Shown here in pieces: positions 15,284 to 38,482 of a stretch of DNA of 64,000 nucleotides (its first letter is position 1; each line of letters starts with the position of its first letter). The DNA lies in NCBI GenBank assembly GCA_022402465.1, contig JAKRSH010000028.1:1-64000 (forward strand), in the 5' to 3' direction. The notes under the pieces are model-generated. The model saw only the letters and a program-made list of their open reading frames with translations, ran no database searches and was not told the origin of the DNA. Origin of the DNA: Leptospiraceae bacterium. GTDB lineage: Bacteria > Spirochaetota > Leptospiria > Leptospirales > Leptospiraceae. The position numbers and the translations under genes are program-made.

Positions 15284-16867
15284 TTGTTTGTTTTTGTATC
15301 TTTATTCTTAGGAACATTTGTATCTGAAGATCTCACTTGTATAACAGGTGGGATTCTTGCAGAGAAAGGACAAGTTAACCTTTTGCTTGTAATATCTGCT
15401 TGTACACTTGGGATTTTTATTAGTGACTTATGGTTGTTCATTATGGGCAAATTTTTTCTCAATTTATCAAAGAATTGGGAGCGATTCAGTAAGATCTTAA
15501 ATTCACATTTAGTATTAAAAATAAAAAACCAAGTTGAATCTAACTTTGGAAAACTAGTGCTTCTATCGAGATTTACTCCAGGAACTAGATTGCCTGTTTA
15601 TTTTCTTTCGGGAACACTTGGAACTAGTTTCGTTCATTTTAGTTTATATTCTTTCATTGCTTGTTCTATCTGGACACCCGTACTAGTTGTACTATCCTAT
15701 TTCTATGGTAAAGCAATTTTACAAAAATTCAATGATCCTTATTCTTATTCTGCAATTGTATTTACTGCAGTTTCTTTTTTTATAATATTTAGTTTAATTG
15801 CGAAACTTTCTCAAAATCAAACAAGACGTGAAATTTGGATAAAATTACAAAAGATACCTAAACTCGAATTCTGGCCAATTTGGATATTCTATATTCCAGT
15901 GATTCCCTATATCGCCTTATTGATGCTACGTTATAAAGGATTTTTAACCATTACCTGCTCTAATCCAGGAATTGAAAATGGTGGAATGGCTGGTGAATCC
16001 AAATCAAAAATTCTTACTCAGCTACCCCAAGAATGGATTGCTAGATTTATTCTAATAGAGCCAGGATCAAAAGTAACTGAGGAAGCTATACTTCTAGATG
16101 GATTTCAATTTCCTTTGATTCTAAAACCTGATGTAGGAGAAAGAGGAGCATTTGTACAAAAAGTTCAAAATTACCAAGAATTAATTTCAATTCTTGCAAA
16201 TGTTAATGTTCCAACAATTCTTCAAGAATTTCATCCTGGTCCTTTTGAAATAGGCGTCTTTTATTATAGATATCCAAGAAGTGCTAAAGGAAGCATCTTT
16301 TCTATAACTAACAAAATTTTTCCAGAACTTATCTGTGATGGTAAATCTACCATAGAAGAATTAATTTACCAACACCCAAGATACAAATTCCAAGCTACTA
16401 CATTCATAGAAAATAATTTATTACAGCTGAATGAAATTCCTCCTACTGGTGAGATACGAAGAATTGGAATTCTAGGAAATCATATCCAAGGCTGTCTTTT
16501 TAAGGATGGATCACATTTGATCACTAGAGAATTAGAAGAACGCATAGACGAAATTTCCAAGCATTTTACCGGTTTCAATTTTGGAAGATATGATCTCCGT
16601 TATACGAATGAAGATGAACTTAAGCTTGGTACAAATTTTCAAATAATAGAGTTAAATGGTGCTATGAGTGAATCTACAAATTTATATGATCCAGATTTTA
16701 CCATCTTCCAAGCATACTCTTATTTATTTGCTCAATGGAAGCATCTTTTTCAAATTGGATACGAAAATCGAAAATTAGGTGCAGTACCCATAACTTATTG
16801 GGAACTCTATAACACTTTAAAAAGGCACTTTCAATACAAAGAGGAACTTCTTAAAAAGGCTGGATAG
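15284..16867 (+). CDS. DedA (VTT) membrane domain fused to ATP-grasp enzyme
   Basis: A 527-residue fusion. Residues 1-200 are a DedA/SNARE-associated membrane domain (GTFVSEDLTCITGGILA, the Arg-containing LLSRFTPGTRLPVYFLSGT motif). Residues about 230-510 are ATP-grasp: NPGIENGGMAGESKSKIL, FPLILKPDVGERGAF as nucleotide-binding Lys/Gly loop, and FQIIELNGAMSES with the metal-binding Glu and Asn. DedA proteins move lipids or maintain membrane charge; ATP-grasp enzymes make amide-type bonds. A coupled lipid-modifying role is inference. The TTG start is uncertain because the frame is open upstream into dinB. Confidence 0.85.
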   Translation: MFVFVSLFLGTFVSEDLTCITGGILAEKGQVNLLLVISACTLGIFISDLWLFIMGKFFLNLSKNWERFSKILNSHLVLKIKNQVESNFGKLVLLSRFTPGTRLPVYFLSGTLGTSFVHFSLYSFIACSIWTPVLVVLSYFYGKAILQKFNDPYSYSAIVFTAVSFFIIFSLIAKLSQNQTRREIWIKLQKIPKLEFWPIWIFYIPVIPYIALLMLRYKGFLTITCSNPGIENGGMAGESKSKILTQLPQEWIARFILIEPGSKVTEEAILLDGFQFPLILKPDVGERGAFVQKVQNYQELISILANVNVPTILQEFHPGPFEIGVFYYRYPRSAKGSIFSITNKIFPELICDGKSTIEELIYQHPRYKFQATTFIENNLLQLNEIPPTGEIRRIGILGNHIQGCLFKDGSHLITRELEERIDEISKHFTGFNFGRYDLRYTNEDELKLGTNFQIIELNGAMSESTNLYDPDFTIFQAYSYLFAQWKHLFQIGYENRKLGAVPITYWELYNTLKRHFQYKEELLKKAG

Positions 16868-16929: not shown

Positions 16930-17156
16930 TTTTTAGTTTAGAAAAAAAGAATTTGAAAGAAAATCCCCAGAAGCATCTGCAATGAATCATTGCCCAGTTG
17001 AGTGACCAGCTCGTGGAACTTTTGGGGATCGGTGGTCTGATGGGATTGCAGTAAGCATAAGCCTACTAACAAGTAGTTGAGCGTATGTCTACTGCTCAGC
17101 CACCTCGCCGGTCATTTGTTTATTACTGTTACTCAATGTGGACCACCTCCTTTTTT
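16930..17156 (+). ncRNA. Candidate structured non-coding RNA
   Basis: A 370-bp gap without a gene contains a block clearly richer in GC than its surroundings, with many nested pairings: ATCCCCAGAAG (16963-16973) with CTTTTGGGGAT (17019-17029); GCAATG/CATTGC (16979-16993); CAGTA (17049-17053) with TACTG (17090-17094); GCATA with TATG(T); CTACT/AGTAG (17063-17076, 4-base loop); GGTGG (17031-17035) with CCACC (17100-17104) or GGTGGTC with GACCACC (17141-17147), followed by six Ts. It does not show RNase P, tmRNA, SRP or known riboswitch signatures that I recognise. Strand is inferred from the T-run. Confidence 0.5.
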
Positions 17157-17239
17157 GCTGGTTCCAAGCTGATCTATGTATGAAAAATGTCAATGGAAAA
17201 CAGATGACAGTTCTATTTTTTTAAAAAATCTGGTGAGTG

Positions 17240-18952
17240 ATGAAGAATTTTTTTCCAATTAATTATAGAGTCGATGCCACTCATACAATTCAGCATTATT
17301 TTCATATAAAATGCCAATTCACAAGCAACCAAAAAGAAACTATTCTTAGGATGCCAAACTGGACACCTGGTTCGTACATGATTCGTGAATATTCGAGGTT
17401 TCTTCATGGGTTCCAATCGGAGAACTCTTGGAGCCAAACAGATCTTGCCGAATGGACAGTACTAGGTGAAGGTCAAATTGAAATTGAATATGCAATATAT
17501 GCATTTGAAGACCTGACGGTGAGAACCAACTATCTAGACTCAGATTTTGGTTTGATAACTCCAGCCGCTTTATTTCTGCAAGTGATTACAGATCAAGATG
17601 TAAACATTTCAATTGAGTGGAAGCTTCCCCAAGATAGACAAGTCTATAGCCCATTAAAAAATAAGAATGACGATCTTCCATTTTTCGTTAAAGGCTATGA
17701 CCTTCTATATGATTCTCCATTTCTAATCACCGACCAGAAGCCAACTTCACTTAACACAGAGAATACTACGCATGAAATACTCATTCAGTCAGAGATGGAG
17801 GATACTTTAAAGAAAAAGTTATGCGAAGATTTAAAAGTGATAGTCGAGCTCCAAGCAAAAATATTAGGCGGAAGTCCAAATGATTATTATCTTTTTATCT
17901 TGATTCTTACAGAAGGAGGCTATGGAGGACTTGAGCATTCTGCTTGCTCAGTAAATATTTTTGATGCATCTAAACTAAAAGATAGAAATGAATATTTGAA
18001 ACTTTTAGAACTACTTTGCCATGAATACTTTCATCTATGGAATATTAAACGAATTCGTCCCAAGGCATTAGGACCCTTTGATTATTCTAAACCAAATTTA
18101 ACCAAAGAGCTTTGGATTGCAGAAGGAATAACAAGTTTCTACGATGCTTATTTTCTTCTGCAGGCTGGTTTCTTAACTATCGATGAATATCTTGCCAAAA
18201 TTTACCAAGATATCAACTTACTGGAAGATAATTCAGGAGAAGAATGGATGAGTTTGGAAGAATCATCCTTCACCGCATGGACTAAATACTACAAAAGAAC
18301 AAGTGATTCGCATAACACTGGAATATCATACTATACAAAAGGAGGAGTCTTGGTATTGTGCATGCAGATTCGCATACTCATTGAAACCAATGGCAAGAAA
18401 TCTTTTATGGATATTATGAAGAAACTCTATCAAGTTTACTATTTAGAGCAGCAGAGAGGATTTACAAAACAAGAATTCTTTCAAATAGCTAGTGATGTTA
18501 CTGGTTTGAATCTACTTGATGAATTCAATATTTATTTGACTCAAAACGTTCGAATCCCAGTTCTCGATTACTTGGCAAAATTAGGAATCTCATCCAAGCT
18601 TGAAAATCCTATCAATGAACTTGGATTCACTTGCCGTGAAAGCAATCGTGGCTTGTTTGTGAATAAAATTTTCCAAAAAAGAATTGATCCCTTGGCTGAA
18701 ATCTACTTAGCCGATGAGATCTTAGCTATCGATGATTTCCGTATAACTTCGAATTCCCAAATGCAATCTGTCCTAGAAACAAAAAAAGAAAATTCTAATA
18801 TTAAAATTCTCTTAGCTAGAAAATCAAAGTTAAAACACATCAATCTAAAGTTGGGAATAAGTTTTAAAGATAGGTCTTTAGTATTTACTAATCAAGAATC
18901 TATGGAAGCAAATCCGTATTGGGATTTATTTTATAAAATCCATAGCAGATAG
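17240..18952 (+). CDS. M61-family glycyl aminopeptidase-like protease with PDZ domain
   Basis: About 570 residues. The N-terminal beta domain has MPNWTPGSYMIREYSR, typical of M61. The zinc site is LLCHEYFHLWNIKRIRP near residue 260, with the downstream WIAEGITSFYDAY carrying the third ligand Glu. A PDZ domain occupies roughly residues 470-550 (GLFVNKIF, LADEILAIDDFRI). No signal peptide is seen, so it may act in the cytosol. GTG 17237 and ATG 17240 are adjacent possible starts. The last 27 bp overlap the convergent mtnB gene. Confidence 0.88.
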   Translation: MKNFFPINYRVDATHTIQHYFHIKCQFTSNQKETILRMPNWTPGSYMIREYSRFLHGFQSENSWSQTDLAEWTVLGEGQIEIEYAIYAFEDLTVRTNYLDSDFGLITPAALFLQVITDQDVNISIEWKLPQDRQVYSPLKNKNDDLPFFVKGYDLLYDSPFLITDQKPTSLNTENTTHEILIQSEMEDTLKKKLCEDLKVIVELQAKILGGSPNDYYLFILILTEGGYGGLEHSACSVNIFDASKLKDRNEYLKLLELLCHEYFHLWNIKRIRPKALGPFDYSKPNLTKELWIAEGITSFYDAYFLLQAGFLTIDEYLAKIYQDINLLEDNSGEEWMSLEESSFTAWTKYYKRTSDSHNTGISYYTKGGVLVLCMQIRILIETNGKKSFMDIMKKLYQVYYLEQQRGFTKQEFFQIASDVTGLNLLDEFNIYLTQNVRIPVLDYLAKLGISSKLENPINELGFTCRESNRGLFVNKIFQKRIDPLAEIYLADEILAIDDFRITSNSQMQSVLETKKENSNIKILLARKSKLKHINLKLGISFKDRSLVFTNQESMEANPYWDLFYKIHSR

Positions 18953-19639: not shown

Positions 19640-20206
19640 TTATTTATTTACTCTTTCTACGTAAGAAAGGTCTCTTAAATCAACCTTGATCACATCGCCC
19701 TGCTTTACAAAAATAGGCACGTTCACTTCTCCACCTGTTTCGACAGTAACTCTCTTTAGGGCTGTTCCAGAAGTATCTCCCTTAAGACCTTCTTCTGCAT
19801 AAGTTACTTCCAATACAGCAAAGTTAGGCGGCTCAACACCAATAGGCTTTCCTTCATAAAAAGAAACATCAACCTTGGTGTCTTCTTTCATGTAAGGAAG
19901 AACATCTTCAACATAATCTTTGGAAACGGGAATCTGCTCAAAATCATTTACATCCATAAAGATGATATCATCACCATCGGCATAGCAATAGGTCATAGAT
20001 CTTTTTTCTATATCTACGTTTTCTAATTTCTCAGATGCTTTGAAAGTTCTTTCAATACCAGTACCCCTCATAACATGTTTGAGTTTTGTACGAATAAAAG
20101 CTGAGCCTTTTCCTGGGTTGACGAATTCAGTTTTGATTACACTGTAGAGTTCGCCTTCTACTTTCAAAACCATACCTTTTTTTACTTCTGTGATGCCTAA
20201 TGCCAT
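19640..20206 (-). CDS. efp: Elongation factor P
   Basis: A 188-residue three-domain OB/KOW protein that rescues ribosomes stalled at consecutive prolines. The loop NPGKGSAFIRTKLK near residue 33 has the Lys that is modified in the beta-lysyl type EF-P, and the C-terminus has the GEVNVPIFVKQGDVIKVDL region. It is divergent from a lysine 2,3-aminomutase gene 109 bp away, the enzyme that makes beta-lysine for this modification, which supports the beta-lysylated type. Confidence 0.97.
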   Translation of the reverse strand: MALGITEVKKGMVLKVEGELYSVIKTEFVNPGKGSAFIRTKLKHVMRGTGIERTFKASEKLENVDIEKRSMTYCYADGDDIIFMDVNDFEQIPVSKDYVEDVLPYMKEDTKVDVSFYEGKPIGVEPPNFAVLEVTYAEEGLKGDTSGTALKRVTVETGGEVNVPIFVKQGDVIKVDLRDLSYVERVNK

Positions 20207-20315: not shown

Positions 20316-21404
20316 GTGAGTGTGAGAAAGGACAAAGATTGGGGCAATTGGAAGTGGCAACTTCAGAATAAGATTCGTAACAAAGAATCTTTAGAAGCTT
20401 ACATTGTCTTGTCGAATGATGAAATATCAGCCATTGATCAAGCTGATTCCCTTTTTGAGCTTGGAATAACACCATATTATGCTTCATTAATGGATCCAAG
20501 AAATACAGAATGTCCTATAAGATTGCAAGCTATACCTAAGCTCATCGAATTGCAAACAAACGAGAGAGATCAGCAGGATCCTTTGGCAGAAGAAAAATAC
20601 ATGCCTGTGAAAGGTGTAACACATCGTTACCCAGATAGAGCACTATGGTATCTTTCTCATAATTGTGCAGTATATTGCAGATTTTGCACAAGAAAAAGAA
20701 AAGTCTCCAAACCTTTGGGAACCCCCAATCGAAACGAATGGGATTCTGCCTTAGATTATTTTCGCAAAACAGAAGCTATTCGAGAGATAATACTTTCCGG
20801 AGGTGACCCATTGAGCCTCTCTGAAGATCATCTTGAGTGGATACTTTCCGAACTAAAGAGAATTCCGCATATCAACCAAATTAGAATTCACAGTAGACAT
20901 CCCGTAACCTTACCAATGCGCATTACTGATACTCTGTGTGAAATATTCAATAAATACTTTCCAATTTATATGGTTACTCACTTCAATCACCCCAAGGAAT
21001 GTACAACTGAATCTGAACAAGCCATTCTACGGCTTGTGAAGCAGGGAGCAGTTTCTGTGATGAACCAATCTGTACTCTTGAAAGGTATCAATGACTCACC
21101 TGAAATTTTACAAAATTTGAATTATAAATTAATTTCTATGGGAGTGAAGCCATATTATCTTCACCAATGCGATGAAACATTTGGAGTCTCTCATTTCCGT
21201 GTACCAATTCAAAAAGGGAAAGAAATTTACCAAAATCTTCGAGGCAAGCAAAGCGGAATTACAGTTCCTTTGTATGTCGCCGATTTAACAGGAGGTGGAG
21301 GGAAAGTCCCTCTTCTACCAGAATATGAAGTTGAGACAAAAGAATTCACGAACATTTACCGAAACTATAAGGGAGACTATTACGAAATTTCCAATGGTAT
21401 TTAG
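20316..21404 (+). CDS. epmB: Lysine 2,3-aminomutase family radical-SAM protein (EpmB/KamA)
   Basis: A 362-residue radical-SAM enzyme. YCRFCTRKRKV near residue 120 is the CxxxCxxC cluster site; SGGDPLSLSEDHLEWIL, IRIHSRHPV and the C-terminal ADLTGGGGKVPLLPEY carry the SAM, substrate and PLP-binding segments. It converts L-lysine to beta-lysine. The short length (KamA proper is about 410-430) and the facing efp gene favour EpmB, which supplies R-beta-lysine for EF-P. The ligase EpmA is not in this window. GTG start; GTG at 20322 is possible. Confidence 0.85.
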   Translation: MSVRKDKDWGNWKWQLQNKIRNKESLEAYIVLSNDEISAIDQADSLFELGITPYYASLMDPRNTECPIRLQAIPKLIELQTNERDQQDPLAEEKYMPVKGVTHRYPDRALWYLSHNCAVYCRFCTRKRKVSKPLGTPNRNEWDSALDYFRKTEAIREIILSGGDPLSLSEDHLEWILSELKRIPHINQIRIHSRHPVTLPMRITDTLCEIFNKYFPIYMVTHFNHPKECTTESEQAILRLVKQGAVSVMNQSVLLKGINDSPEILQNLNYKLISMGVKPYYLHQCDETFGVSHFRVPIQKGKEIYQNLRGKQSGITVPLYVADLTGGGGKVPLLPEYEVETKEFTNIYRNYKGDYYEISNGI

Positions 21405-36246: not shown

Positions 36247-37005
36247 TTATCGTTTCGGCAATTGGATAATATCGCCGATCTTAATGGAGTTAGACTTAGT
36301 TGGAGTAAAACGAAAGCTAGTCTCTATAACCTCTTTTAAACTAATCTCTTGTAGAGGAATCCCGACATCGGATAAGATGATCCCCCTTTGCCCTGGTTTA
36401 TAAAAACTCAATCCTATACCCCAAGCAATCAAATCATCGTTACTTGAGAGAACTACTGCAATTTGTGTATTGTTTGCATTTTTAAAACGATGCATGAATT
36501 CGCCATGCTTTGCGCCGTATTGGTCCGGCCTCAATTCAAATCTCTCCAATTGGGCTTGGGTTTTTGAAGGATTTATTTGTCTGGAAAAAATCATTTCCAC
36601 ATGATCACAATCAAAGGCACGTGTTAATGCTCTTCTATCAACCAGGGTTCTACTCGTATAAACTCTGCAAGAATTGGGCCTAAGCATAATCTTATCATCA
36701 GAAAGCTGTTTCCATTTTCCTTCATACCGGGACTCTTCCCAATTCCTTTTTGAGTGTAAAAGTATTCTGTAGAGTTGGAATTTCCCATTTTTATGTAGTC
36801 TAAGATGTTGGGTGTAGGAAGTATTAACCAAGGTGATAATTTCTGTGAAATAATCATTTGCCCAGATTTGGTTAGTTTGGGGTGAAGAATCCTTAAGATT
36901 CTTACTGGATAAAGAAGGTTGTAATTCCAAGATGAGAATCAAAGAAATAAATAAAATAACTGTAATACGACGTAGCAGCTTAGTTCTAATTTGCAGCATC
37001 TTCAT
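36247..37005 (-). CDS. Exported hypothetical protein
   Basis: A 252-residue protein with a signal peptide (RRITVILFISLILILELQP). The mature part is beta-rich: LHKNGKFQLYRILLHS, WEESRYEGKWKQL, then a segment with two Cys (SCRVYTS and FDCDHVEM) that could form a disulfide. No family recognised. Its signal-peptide codons overlap those of the divergent metalloprotease gene on the other strand by 74 bp. Confidence 0.65.
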   Translation of the reverse strand: MKMLQIRTKLLRRITVILFISLILILELQPSLSSKNLKDSSPQTNQIWANDYFTEIITLVNTSYTQHLRLHKNGKFQLYRILLHSKRNWEESRYEGKWKQLSDDKIMLRPNSCRVYTSRTLVDRRALTRAFDCDHVEMIFSRQINPSKTQAQLERFELRPDQYGAKHGEFMHRFKNANNTQIAVVLSSNDDLIAWGIGLSFYKPGQRGIILSDVGIPLQEISLKEVIETSFRFTPTKSNSIKIGDIIQLPKR

Positions 37006-38482
37006 CCATTTTCAATGTGGTCTCTCTTTCTCCAACAAAGAAAACTCCCAAGACAAAGTTTTACAAGATCTATTCGGCCTCTACCTCTTGAGTTCTTTAT
37101 TTTGCACGAATGGACTTTGGGCGAGAAATGTATCAACCAATAGACCTGAATGTATACCAGCTACCAAGGTAATCACTAGCCAATTTGCAAATATCTATAT
37201 AGAGAATGGTTTGAACTTAAAACTTGATATCAATCTACTTGCCAGTGATTTCGATACCAAAATCCATCCAGCTCTAACTAAGACATTCGGGCAGCCTAGC
37301 GACATAAATGGAGATGGACGGATAGATATTTTCATTTTAGATATTCGGGATGGAGCTAGACCCAATGGTCCTTTTGTAGCTGGATTCTTTGATCCGAGTG
37401 ACCTGGCAACAGGAGTATCTTCATCGAACAATCGAAGAGAGATTCTTTATATGGATGGAAAGGAGTTAATTGCCTTACTTACTAGGGATCCATCAGCCTT
37501 CGAATCTACAGTTGCTCACGAATACCAACATTTGATTCGATATCCTAGAATACAGGCTTCCGGTGGAACGGATGATATTTGGATCAATGAAGGAACAAGT
37601 GAGGTAGCAAGTGATATAGGTGGGTTCTTCCCTCAAACCAGTCGTATTCGATGTTTCCAAGGAAGCATAGATTCACCTTGCAGCGGTGGAGGGAATGGTG
37701 TTTCCTTATTGGAATGGTCTAGCAACCCAACGAATGATTCCAGTTATATCTTGAAACAATATTCTTATGCTTACGTATTTACTCGCTATCTCTATGATAC
37801 AGCCGGACCAAGTTCCGAATCCAAAAGATTGTTCTTCTTCAATTCTGTAAATGGGAACTCTTCAAGAATCCGAGGAAATACAATTTTAAATCTCATGCAA
37901 TTGTATAGAGAATCCAACTCATTGGATGCAAATCTTGGACCAAGCAATTCAGAAGCTTTTCTAAGAATGCTTAATTCTTTTTGGTTGCAAATGATTCCAG
38001 GAAGTACTTCAAATCCTGTCGTCAGGTCAGGATCCCCGAGTACAAATCTTGATTTGTCAACACTTGTAACAAATTACCCACTTTCATCAACTCTAATCTC
38101 TGCTAATTCAAGTGTATTTCCTGTCCTTTCTGACATCCCCAATAGAATCTCTGCCTCAGCGGGAGTACGAGTTGCAAATTCTATCGATGTAAATGGTACT
38201 GTTCAAGCAATATCAGCAAGTAATAAGATCACTTCTATAACGAATCCTTCATCTCGAACACTTTTATTTGCGGAAGCGAATGCGAATATTTCTCTACAAA
38301 GAGGACTGCACTCACATGAATCTCAACTAGAAAATGAATTTGTAGGTAGTGGTAAGCTCGGTGGCAAATGGAATTCATGGAGCAAAGATTTTGAAAGAGA
38401 CCAAGAATCTGGATTCGCCAAAGGAAACCAAACCTCTCCCAGCCCTCTTCCAGTCTGCGGACATCCCTTCTTAATGGAATAA
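36932..38482 (+). CDS. M30-like secreted zinc metalloprotease lipoprotein
   Basis: A 516-residue exported protein. SLVLICSIFIHFQCG is a lipoprotein-type signal. The catalytic region is STVAHEYQHLIRY (HExxH, near residue 195) followed by WINEGTSEVASDIGG with the third-ligand Glu, a hyicolysin/M30-like arrangement. An Asp-rich NGDGRIDIFILDI segment upstream may bind calcium. It probably acts at the cell surface on host or environmental protein. Only ATG 36932 gives a proper n-region, so it overlaps the divergent gene by 74 bp. Confidence 0.8.
   Translation: MRIKEINKITVIRRSSLVLICSIFIHFQCGLSFSNKENSQDKVLQDLFGLYLLSSLFCTNGLWARNVSTNRPECIPATKVITSQFANIYIENGLNLKLDINLLASDFDTKIHPALTKTFGQPSDINGDGRIDIFILDIRDGARPNGPFVAGFFDPSDLATGVSSSNNRREILYMDGKELIALLTRDPSAFESTVAHEYQHLIRYPRIQASGGTDDIWINEGTSEVASDIGGFFPQTSRIRCFQGSIDSPCSGGGNGVSLLEWSSNPTNDSSYILKQYSYAYVFTRYLYDTAGPSSESKRLFFFNSVNGNSSRIRGNTILNLMQLYRESNSLDANLGPSNSEAFLRMLNSFWLQMIPGSTSNPVVRSGSPSTNLDLSTLVTNYPLSSTLISANSSVFPVLSDIPNRISASAGVRVANSIDVNGTVQAISASNKITSITNPSSRTLLFAEANANISLQRGLHSHESQLENEFVGSGKLGGKWNSWSKDFERDQESGFAKGNQTSPSPLPVCGHPFLME

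Follow-up and report, generated by a model that had tools for sequence, protein, structure and literature searches.

The intergenic segment at positions 16930-17156 of the window, the whole 64-kb stretch of spirochaete DNA that was analysed, raises the question of what kind of RNA it encodes and on which strand. The original prediction was of a structured non-coding RNA of housekeeping type on the plus strand, with its own promoter and terminator and no match to a known class. Its account of composition and pairing was borne out. The GC content of the segment is 0.423 compared with 0.353 window-wide, only 6% of 227-nt stretches being equally GC-rich, and the named stems were found in the sequence, namely an 11-bp helix (ATCCCCAGAAG/CTTTTGGGGAT) and the pair GGTGGTC (17031-17037) and GACCACC (17142-17148), after which come TCC and a T-run.

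Strand and Identity of the RNA

Compared with shuffled sequences, the segment showed a modest gain in folding energy on either strand (z of -2.64 on the plus and -2.29 on the minus strand), and because these values are similar the choice of strand needs more than folding. The minus strand of the homologues described below holds a TTGACA box, a Shine-Dalgarno sequence, a reading frame and a terminator (GGGGATTTTC), and the T-run seen on the plus strand is the reverse complement of an A-run and the Shine-Dalgarno sequence at the 5' end of the RNA. When the structure drawn from nine homologues was read on the minus strand, 19 cells were G-U and 6 were A-C, which favours that strand. A non-coding RNA transcribed from the plus strand would fold about equally well, but the promoter box, Shine-Dalgarno sequence, reading frame, terminator and G-U pattern are all conserved on the minus strand, and we regard the probability of such an RNA as close to negligible. 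Judged by its homologues, the gene lies on the minus strand, at about 17162 to 16954, and the orientation first proposed was wrong.

No Rfam family reached its gathering score anywhere in the 64-kb window. In a permissive search one sub-threshold match stood out for the RNA, to RF02471 (Ms_IGR-5), which covered the full length of the model (1-184 of 184) on the minus strand at 17160-16956 with 26.8 bits and an E value of 4e-4. Across 100 relatives of the window genome, nine genomes from its family or order, counting that of the window itself, gave sub-threshold full-length matches to RF02471; in eight other spirochaete genomes the full-length alignment had E values of 0.0013 or better, down to 1e-7. 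Several of these places were also recovered by DNA similarity search. Their sense strands share a TTGAC box, AAAAGGAGGTGRTCY, an A/T-rich linker of 26-45 nt, GAGGTGRCT, CAATCCnnnCAGACCACC and a hairpin with a T-run. Since the scores (26.8 bits for the window and 40.8 bits for the best spirochaete) lie below the gathering cut-off of 45 bits, the window RNA is not filed as a member of RF02471.

The relationship was also examined in the opposite direction with R1, a covariance model built from nine spirochaete homologues only, the window copy among them. R1 found all 11 of the actinobacterial Ms_IGR-5 members offered to it, with E values of 6e-12 to 3e-6, so that two independent models detect each other's members. 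The likeness extends to the full-length alignment, a Shine-Dalgarno-like 5' end, the GAGGUGGCUG/CAGnCACC pairing, the terminator, a micro-ORF and a pseudoknot to the terminal hairpin loop, and the covarying core (P2, pseudoknot and terminator) is the same in the spirochaetes and in the RF02471 actinobacteria. In 17 homologous loci outside accepted RF02471 members, the RNA matched no other Rfam family at gathering level. That the window RNA and Ms_IGR-5 are distant homologues is thus well supported by sequence comparison. The statement that the RNA matches no known class holds with respect to the gathering score, and fails in that a distant homologue exists. A tRNA-like domain, considered from the resemblance of GAGGTGGCTGAG to the start of tRNA-Ser, was rejected; no tRNA was detected in the window.

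Distribution among Bacterial Groups

R1 added further spirochaete copies, one of them from a more distant family (92 bits). The window genome has a single copy of the RNA; a second R1 match in the window, at 36950-37097 on the minus strand (13.4 bits, E value of 0.09), is most likely due to chance. The spread of the RNA within Leptospirales (G001 and G008-G029) is patchy, most sister-family genomes being without an R1 match, which implies that loss or strong divergence must be frequent. This patchy spread, with the RNA in five of the seven further genomes from its family and missing across most of the order, lends no support to a housekeeping type. One spirochaete copy (positions 1501-1777 of locus L105, genome G023) carries a long insertion in the terminal hairpin, bringing its total to 277 nt, with the outer stem strands and terminator kept.

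When about 85,000 species genomes were scanned for the pattern AGGAGGTGRTCYN{20,50}GAGGTGGCTGRG, 67 stretches were obtained, compared with about 3 expected by chance on our own estimate. Most were from Acidobacteriota, the others being from metagenome-assembled genomes (MAGs) named Deltaproteobacteria, Sumerlaeota/BRC1, Leptospirae and two actinobacteria. R1, in the training of which non-spirochaete loci never figured, matched most of these places with E values of 1e-14 to 1e-2. One actinobacterial locus was a bona fide RF02471 member (60.3 bits, over the cut-off); the other (L054) was discarded as a chance match within a long coding frame. Of 118 genomes sampled from one actinobacterial class, 78 had an RF02471 match above the cut-off, with two copies in one matched genome (G390) and one in each of the others. 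None of the non-actinobacterial copies tested (spirochaete, acidobacterial, sumerlaeotal and "deltaproteobacterial") reached that cut-off.

With a relaxed pattern, hits were obtained in 11 of 40 Sumerlaeota genomes with none in the control. Raw hits were level with the reversed control in samples of Acidobacteriota (6 compared with 5) and of one "deltaproteobacterial" phylum (5 compared with 5); five and two of these hits, respectively, carry the hallmark reading frame. No match to the RNA was found by BLASTN against plasmids. Sequence comparison thus places the family in at least five bacterial groups, namely spirochaetes, actinobacteria, Acidobacteriota, Sumerlaeota and MAGs labelled Deltaproteobacteria. 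Near one sumerlaeotal copy (L040), at a distance of about 2.5 kb, lies an Acido-Lenti-1 RNA (RF01687, over cut-off, 2677-2722).

Anatomy and Covariation

As matched by R1, of which it is a training sequence, the window copy of the RNA is about 209 nt long (16954-17162, minus strand, as are all features below) and scores 157 bits. A -35-like TTGACA box lies at 17188-17193, with TTGAC at the same place in most homologues; the -10 element of the window copy is weak. An extended Shine-Dalgarno sequence, AAGGAGGTGGTCC (17140-17152), is conserved in all homologues and, with a single G-U pair, is complementary to GGAUCACCUCCUU, the 3' end typical of bacterial 16S rRNA. Neither a 16S gene nor its 3' end was found in the 45-contig assembly of the window genome by pattern or with RF00177, and the complementarity therefore rests on the general bacterial sequence. 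The anatomy common to the groups consists of AAGGAGGTGRTCC, complementary almost throughout to the 16S 3' end, then a linker, GAGGTGGCTG, which pairs with CAGnCCACC to form P2, and a terminator hairpin; a pseudoknot is found in several groups.

Covariation was assessed in an alignment (A3) of nine spirochaete sequences with a hand-built structure comprising P2, P3, the P4 terminator and the pseudoknot. In the window copy, the 5' strand of P2, GGTGGCTGA (17096-17104), coincides with the final codons of a micro-ORF, and its 3' strand, TCAGACCACC (17031-17040, one A bulged), follows a conserved AATCCC (17047-17042). P3 pairs GCAGTA (17090-17095), which overlaps the stop codon, with TACTGC (17048-17053), and P4 pairs ATCCCCAAAAG (17019-17029) with CTTCTGGGGAT, the latter running into the T-rich tail TTTCTTT (16956-16973). 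The pseudoknot pairs GACCGGC (17107-17113), within the micro-ORF, with GCTGGTC (17004-17010) in the loop of the terminal hairpin. In A3, 86% of cells were paired and 16 of 32 pairs had changed on both sides, compared with 77% and 7.5 pairs in shuffles and with 30-44% of cells paired when the structure was slid; none of 500 shuffles matched the 16 two-sided changes. All ten pairs of P4 covary. The predicted structured RNA, equipped with a promoter and terminator of its own, is borne out, with strong support from covariation, on the opposite strand to that proposed.

Similar agreement was obtained beyond the spirochaetes. Among 55 distinct cross-group sequences 90% of cells were paired, a value that leans towards the structure because the sequences were aligned by fitting to the model. 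In 24 actinobacteria aligned with MAFFT, and hence blind to structure, P2, the pseudoknot and the terminator were 96% paired (98.6% for P2) and 12 of 25 pairs had changed on both sides. The structure given by Rfam instead pairs the Shine-Dalgarno sequence with the end of the ORF, and this helix (SD-GCUGCC) showed zero two-sided changes in the same 24 sequences. Judged by covariation, the actual fold is different from the one catalogued. Such a pattern of paired changes implies a functional fold.

The pseudoknot forms between GAC(Y) or GGAC just 5' of GAGGUGG and the hairpin loop. In both of the two actinobacteria that have GGAU for GGAC, the loop has AUCC for GUCC, and in one acidobacterium with GACU the loop has AGUC. 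The loop partner proper to each type was kept in 30 of 35 GGAC-type and 14 of 24 GACC-type copies, compared with 2 of 35 and 2 of 24 for the partner of the other type. A simple loop test found a partner in 55 of 103 loci, copies with none being common outside spirochaetes, actinobacteria and some acidobacteria. The hairpin concerned precedes the 3' strand of P2 in acidobacteria and follows it in spirochaetes and actinobacteria.

In the minimum-energy fold of the window copy, GACCACC closes on the Shine-Dalgarno sequence (GGUGGUC) and does not pair with the ORF, a point against the reading favoured below. Duplex energies for the Shine-Dalgarno and P2 alternatives gave the ORF partner as the stronger in 47 of 59 loci, and closure of the Shine-Dalgarno sequence is for that reason only a suggestion.

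A Conserved Micro-ORF

Between the Shine-Dalgarno sequence and the conserved GAGGTGGCT, and reaching five codons into the latter, the window copy contains a 15-codon ORF (17136 to 17089; TTG AGT AAC AGT AAT AAA CAA ATG ACC GGC GAG GTG GCT GAG CAG TAG) that runs from a TTG start to TAG and translates as MSNSNKQMTGEVAEQ. All 100 distinct loci (10 spirochaete, 60 acidobacterial, deltaproteobacterial or sumerlaeotal, and 30 actinobacterial) have an ATG, GTG or TTG at the distance expected of a start behind a Shine-Dalgarno sequence, in frame and uninterrupted by a stop up to GAG. About 10 were obtained with shuffled linkers, and 1 and 11 in the other two frames. The loci are partly related and so not independent, and the GAGGTGGCTG core was in the search pattern of one set; the linker, start and frame were outside that pattern, and the RF02471 and R1 sets were obtained without it. 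A conserved ORF within the RNA, as looked for in a dual-function RNA, is thus present in 100 of 100 loci compared with about 10 expected. The stop lies at codon +5 from the start of GAGGTGGCT in 99 loci and at +6 in one, with TAG, TAA and TGA interchanging at the same site, and ORF length ranges from 11 to 21 codons. In actinobacteria the start is ATG, GTG or TTG and the length is constant at 12 codons (13 once), the spacing between Shine-Dalgarno sequence and start varying instead.

The RNA is probably read by ribosomes and hence not purely non-coding. A purely non-coding RNA had been considered when the one aligned ATG proved unconserved, and was dropped once the true starts (ATG, GTG or TTG right after the Shine-Dalgarno sequence) were recognised. 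The description as a non-coding RNA is accordingly sound as to structure and incomplete as to coding, given the conserved micro-ORF with an extended Shine-Dalgarno sequence at the 5' end.

UAG is the stop in 62 of 72 and 27 of 31 loci, many of them in high-GC genomes, in which UGA usually dominates; TAA and TGA also occur. The preference may reflect pairing in P3 or a preference for release factor 1.

Conservation of start, frame and stop is what would be expected of a micropeptide gene, that is, an mRNA for a peptide of 11-21 residues ending in EVAE or EVAA whose fold regulates translation or stability, and changes among acidobacterial copies favour codon position 3 over 1 over 2 (238/179/88). 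However, the N-terminal residues vary between phyla, and linker codon changes are mostly non-synonymous (270 compared with 75). The conserved EVA codons form the P2 strand, and in one spirochaete clade GCT has changed to ACT (EVA to EVT) and the P2 partner has changed to compensate, indicating that pairing constrains these codons. A search of NCBIfam with four of the peptides of 20-21 residues gave no match. Constraint seems to fall on pairing, start and stop more than on the peptide, and a micropeptide gene is, in our estimation, rather unlikely.

A second possibility is that the near-perfect Shine-Dalgarno sequence parks ribosomes or 30S subunits, the RNA acting as a decoy and translational counterpart of 6S RNA in which the ORF is incidental or aids holding. 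Complementarity to the 16S 3' end, conserved over 12-13 nt, is consistent with such a role, as are ribosome footprints on the MS_IGR-5 homologues of Mycobacterium abscessus and M. smegmatis (PMC4974804), although these are unspecific, most mycobacterial ncRNAs showing footprints in that study (PMC4974804). For a pure decoy, however, both the conserved spacing of start and stop and a P2 and pseudoknot that use sequence 3' of the stop would be superfluous, and we consider a decoy improbable.

Genomic Context

The RNA is flanked in the window by a divergent gene (17237-18952, plus strand) and a convergent gene (15284-16867, plus strand). Of 107 loci, 61 have their downstream neighbour on the opposite strand, as the window does, and 46 have it on the same strand. 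No neighbour family was shared across loci, neighbours recurring only within close clades, and their functions, assigned by eye, are ordinary housekeeping ones. With no conserved neighbour and a mixed downstream strand, a stand-alone gene is indicated and a leader or attenuator is unlikely. A leader-peptide attenuator controlling a downstream gene would share the classical layout of a strong Shine-Dalgarno sequence, a short ORF, alternative and mutually exclusive pairings and a terminator; the window RNA family differs in having no conserved downstream gene, no co-directional downstream family being shared, and the ORF has no run of codons for one amino acid. Such an attenuator is very improbable.

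Elsewhere in the window, a gene resembling that of elongation factor P (EF-P; 19640-20206, minus strand) adjoins, and is divergent from, a KamA/EpmB-like radical SAM gene (20316-21404, plus strand), both assigned by eye. EF-P and a KamA/EpmB-like radical SAM protein are the usual EF-P modification pairing.

Discussion

There is in our judgement about an even chance that the RNA of the window is a stand-alone, minus-strand relative of Ms_IGR-5 of dual character, the fold of which is gated by translation of the micro-ORF. In this mechanism, 30S subunits would load very efficiently on the extended Shine-Dalgarno sequence, and transit of the ribosome through the ORF would open the pseudoknot and P2, because the 5' strands of both are ORF codons. 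Opening would free the conserved AAUCCCnnCAGnCCACC, which may then act in trans or fold back onto the Shine-Dalgarno sequence. The state of the RNA would then report, or be gated by, translation, and what is conserved would be the event of being translated, with the peptide mattering less. The unspecific footprints on the mycobacterial homologues would fit this reading as well. A further-reaching version, in which an ancient, multi-phylum, ribosome-engaged RNA switches its structure and trans activity with each translation event and the peptide is a by-product, is put forward tentatively.

Dual-function sRNAs such as SgrS/SgrT, SR1/SR1P and RNAIII/hld are likewise stand-alone RNAs of regulatory type with a short ORF. 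The present RNA differs from them in that its frame is much shorter and its codons form the core helices, and in that conservation falls on start, stop and pairing, the peptide being poorly conserved. With 6S RNA and tmRNA it would share a broad distribution and the expected engagement of a core machine by a structured RNA, but it has no Rfam match to either and its anatomy is different.

Published evidence of an expressed small transcript comes from actinobacteria only and includes RNA-seq support for the copy in Streptomyces lividans (PMC8079986), a transcription unit in S. avermitilis (PMC8780764) and detection of IGR-5 in M. smegmatis in a study of cold stress (PMC10454040). Rfam lists Ms_IGR-5 under the sRNA gene type, its output making no mention of an ORF, and neither a conserved ORF nor homologues outside actinobacteria were mentioned in the literature searched, which mostly lay outside subscription journals.

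Sequence and covariation identify the window RNA as a divergent relative of Ms_IGR-5, and not as an unknown orphan or an ncRNA of the plus strand. The family, catalogued as an sRNA of actinobacteria, is far wider than that, and it has an overlooked conserved frame and another fold. An orphan Rfam entry would become a translation-linked regulator open to testing in tractable hosts, for instance M. smegmatis and Streptomyces. The Leptospira-class spirochaetes gain a conserved RNA gene that goes unreported by Rfam at its own cut-off.
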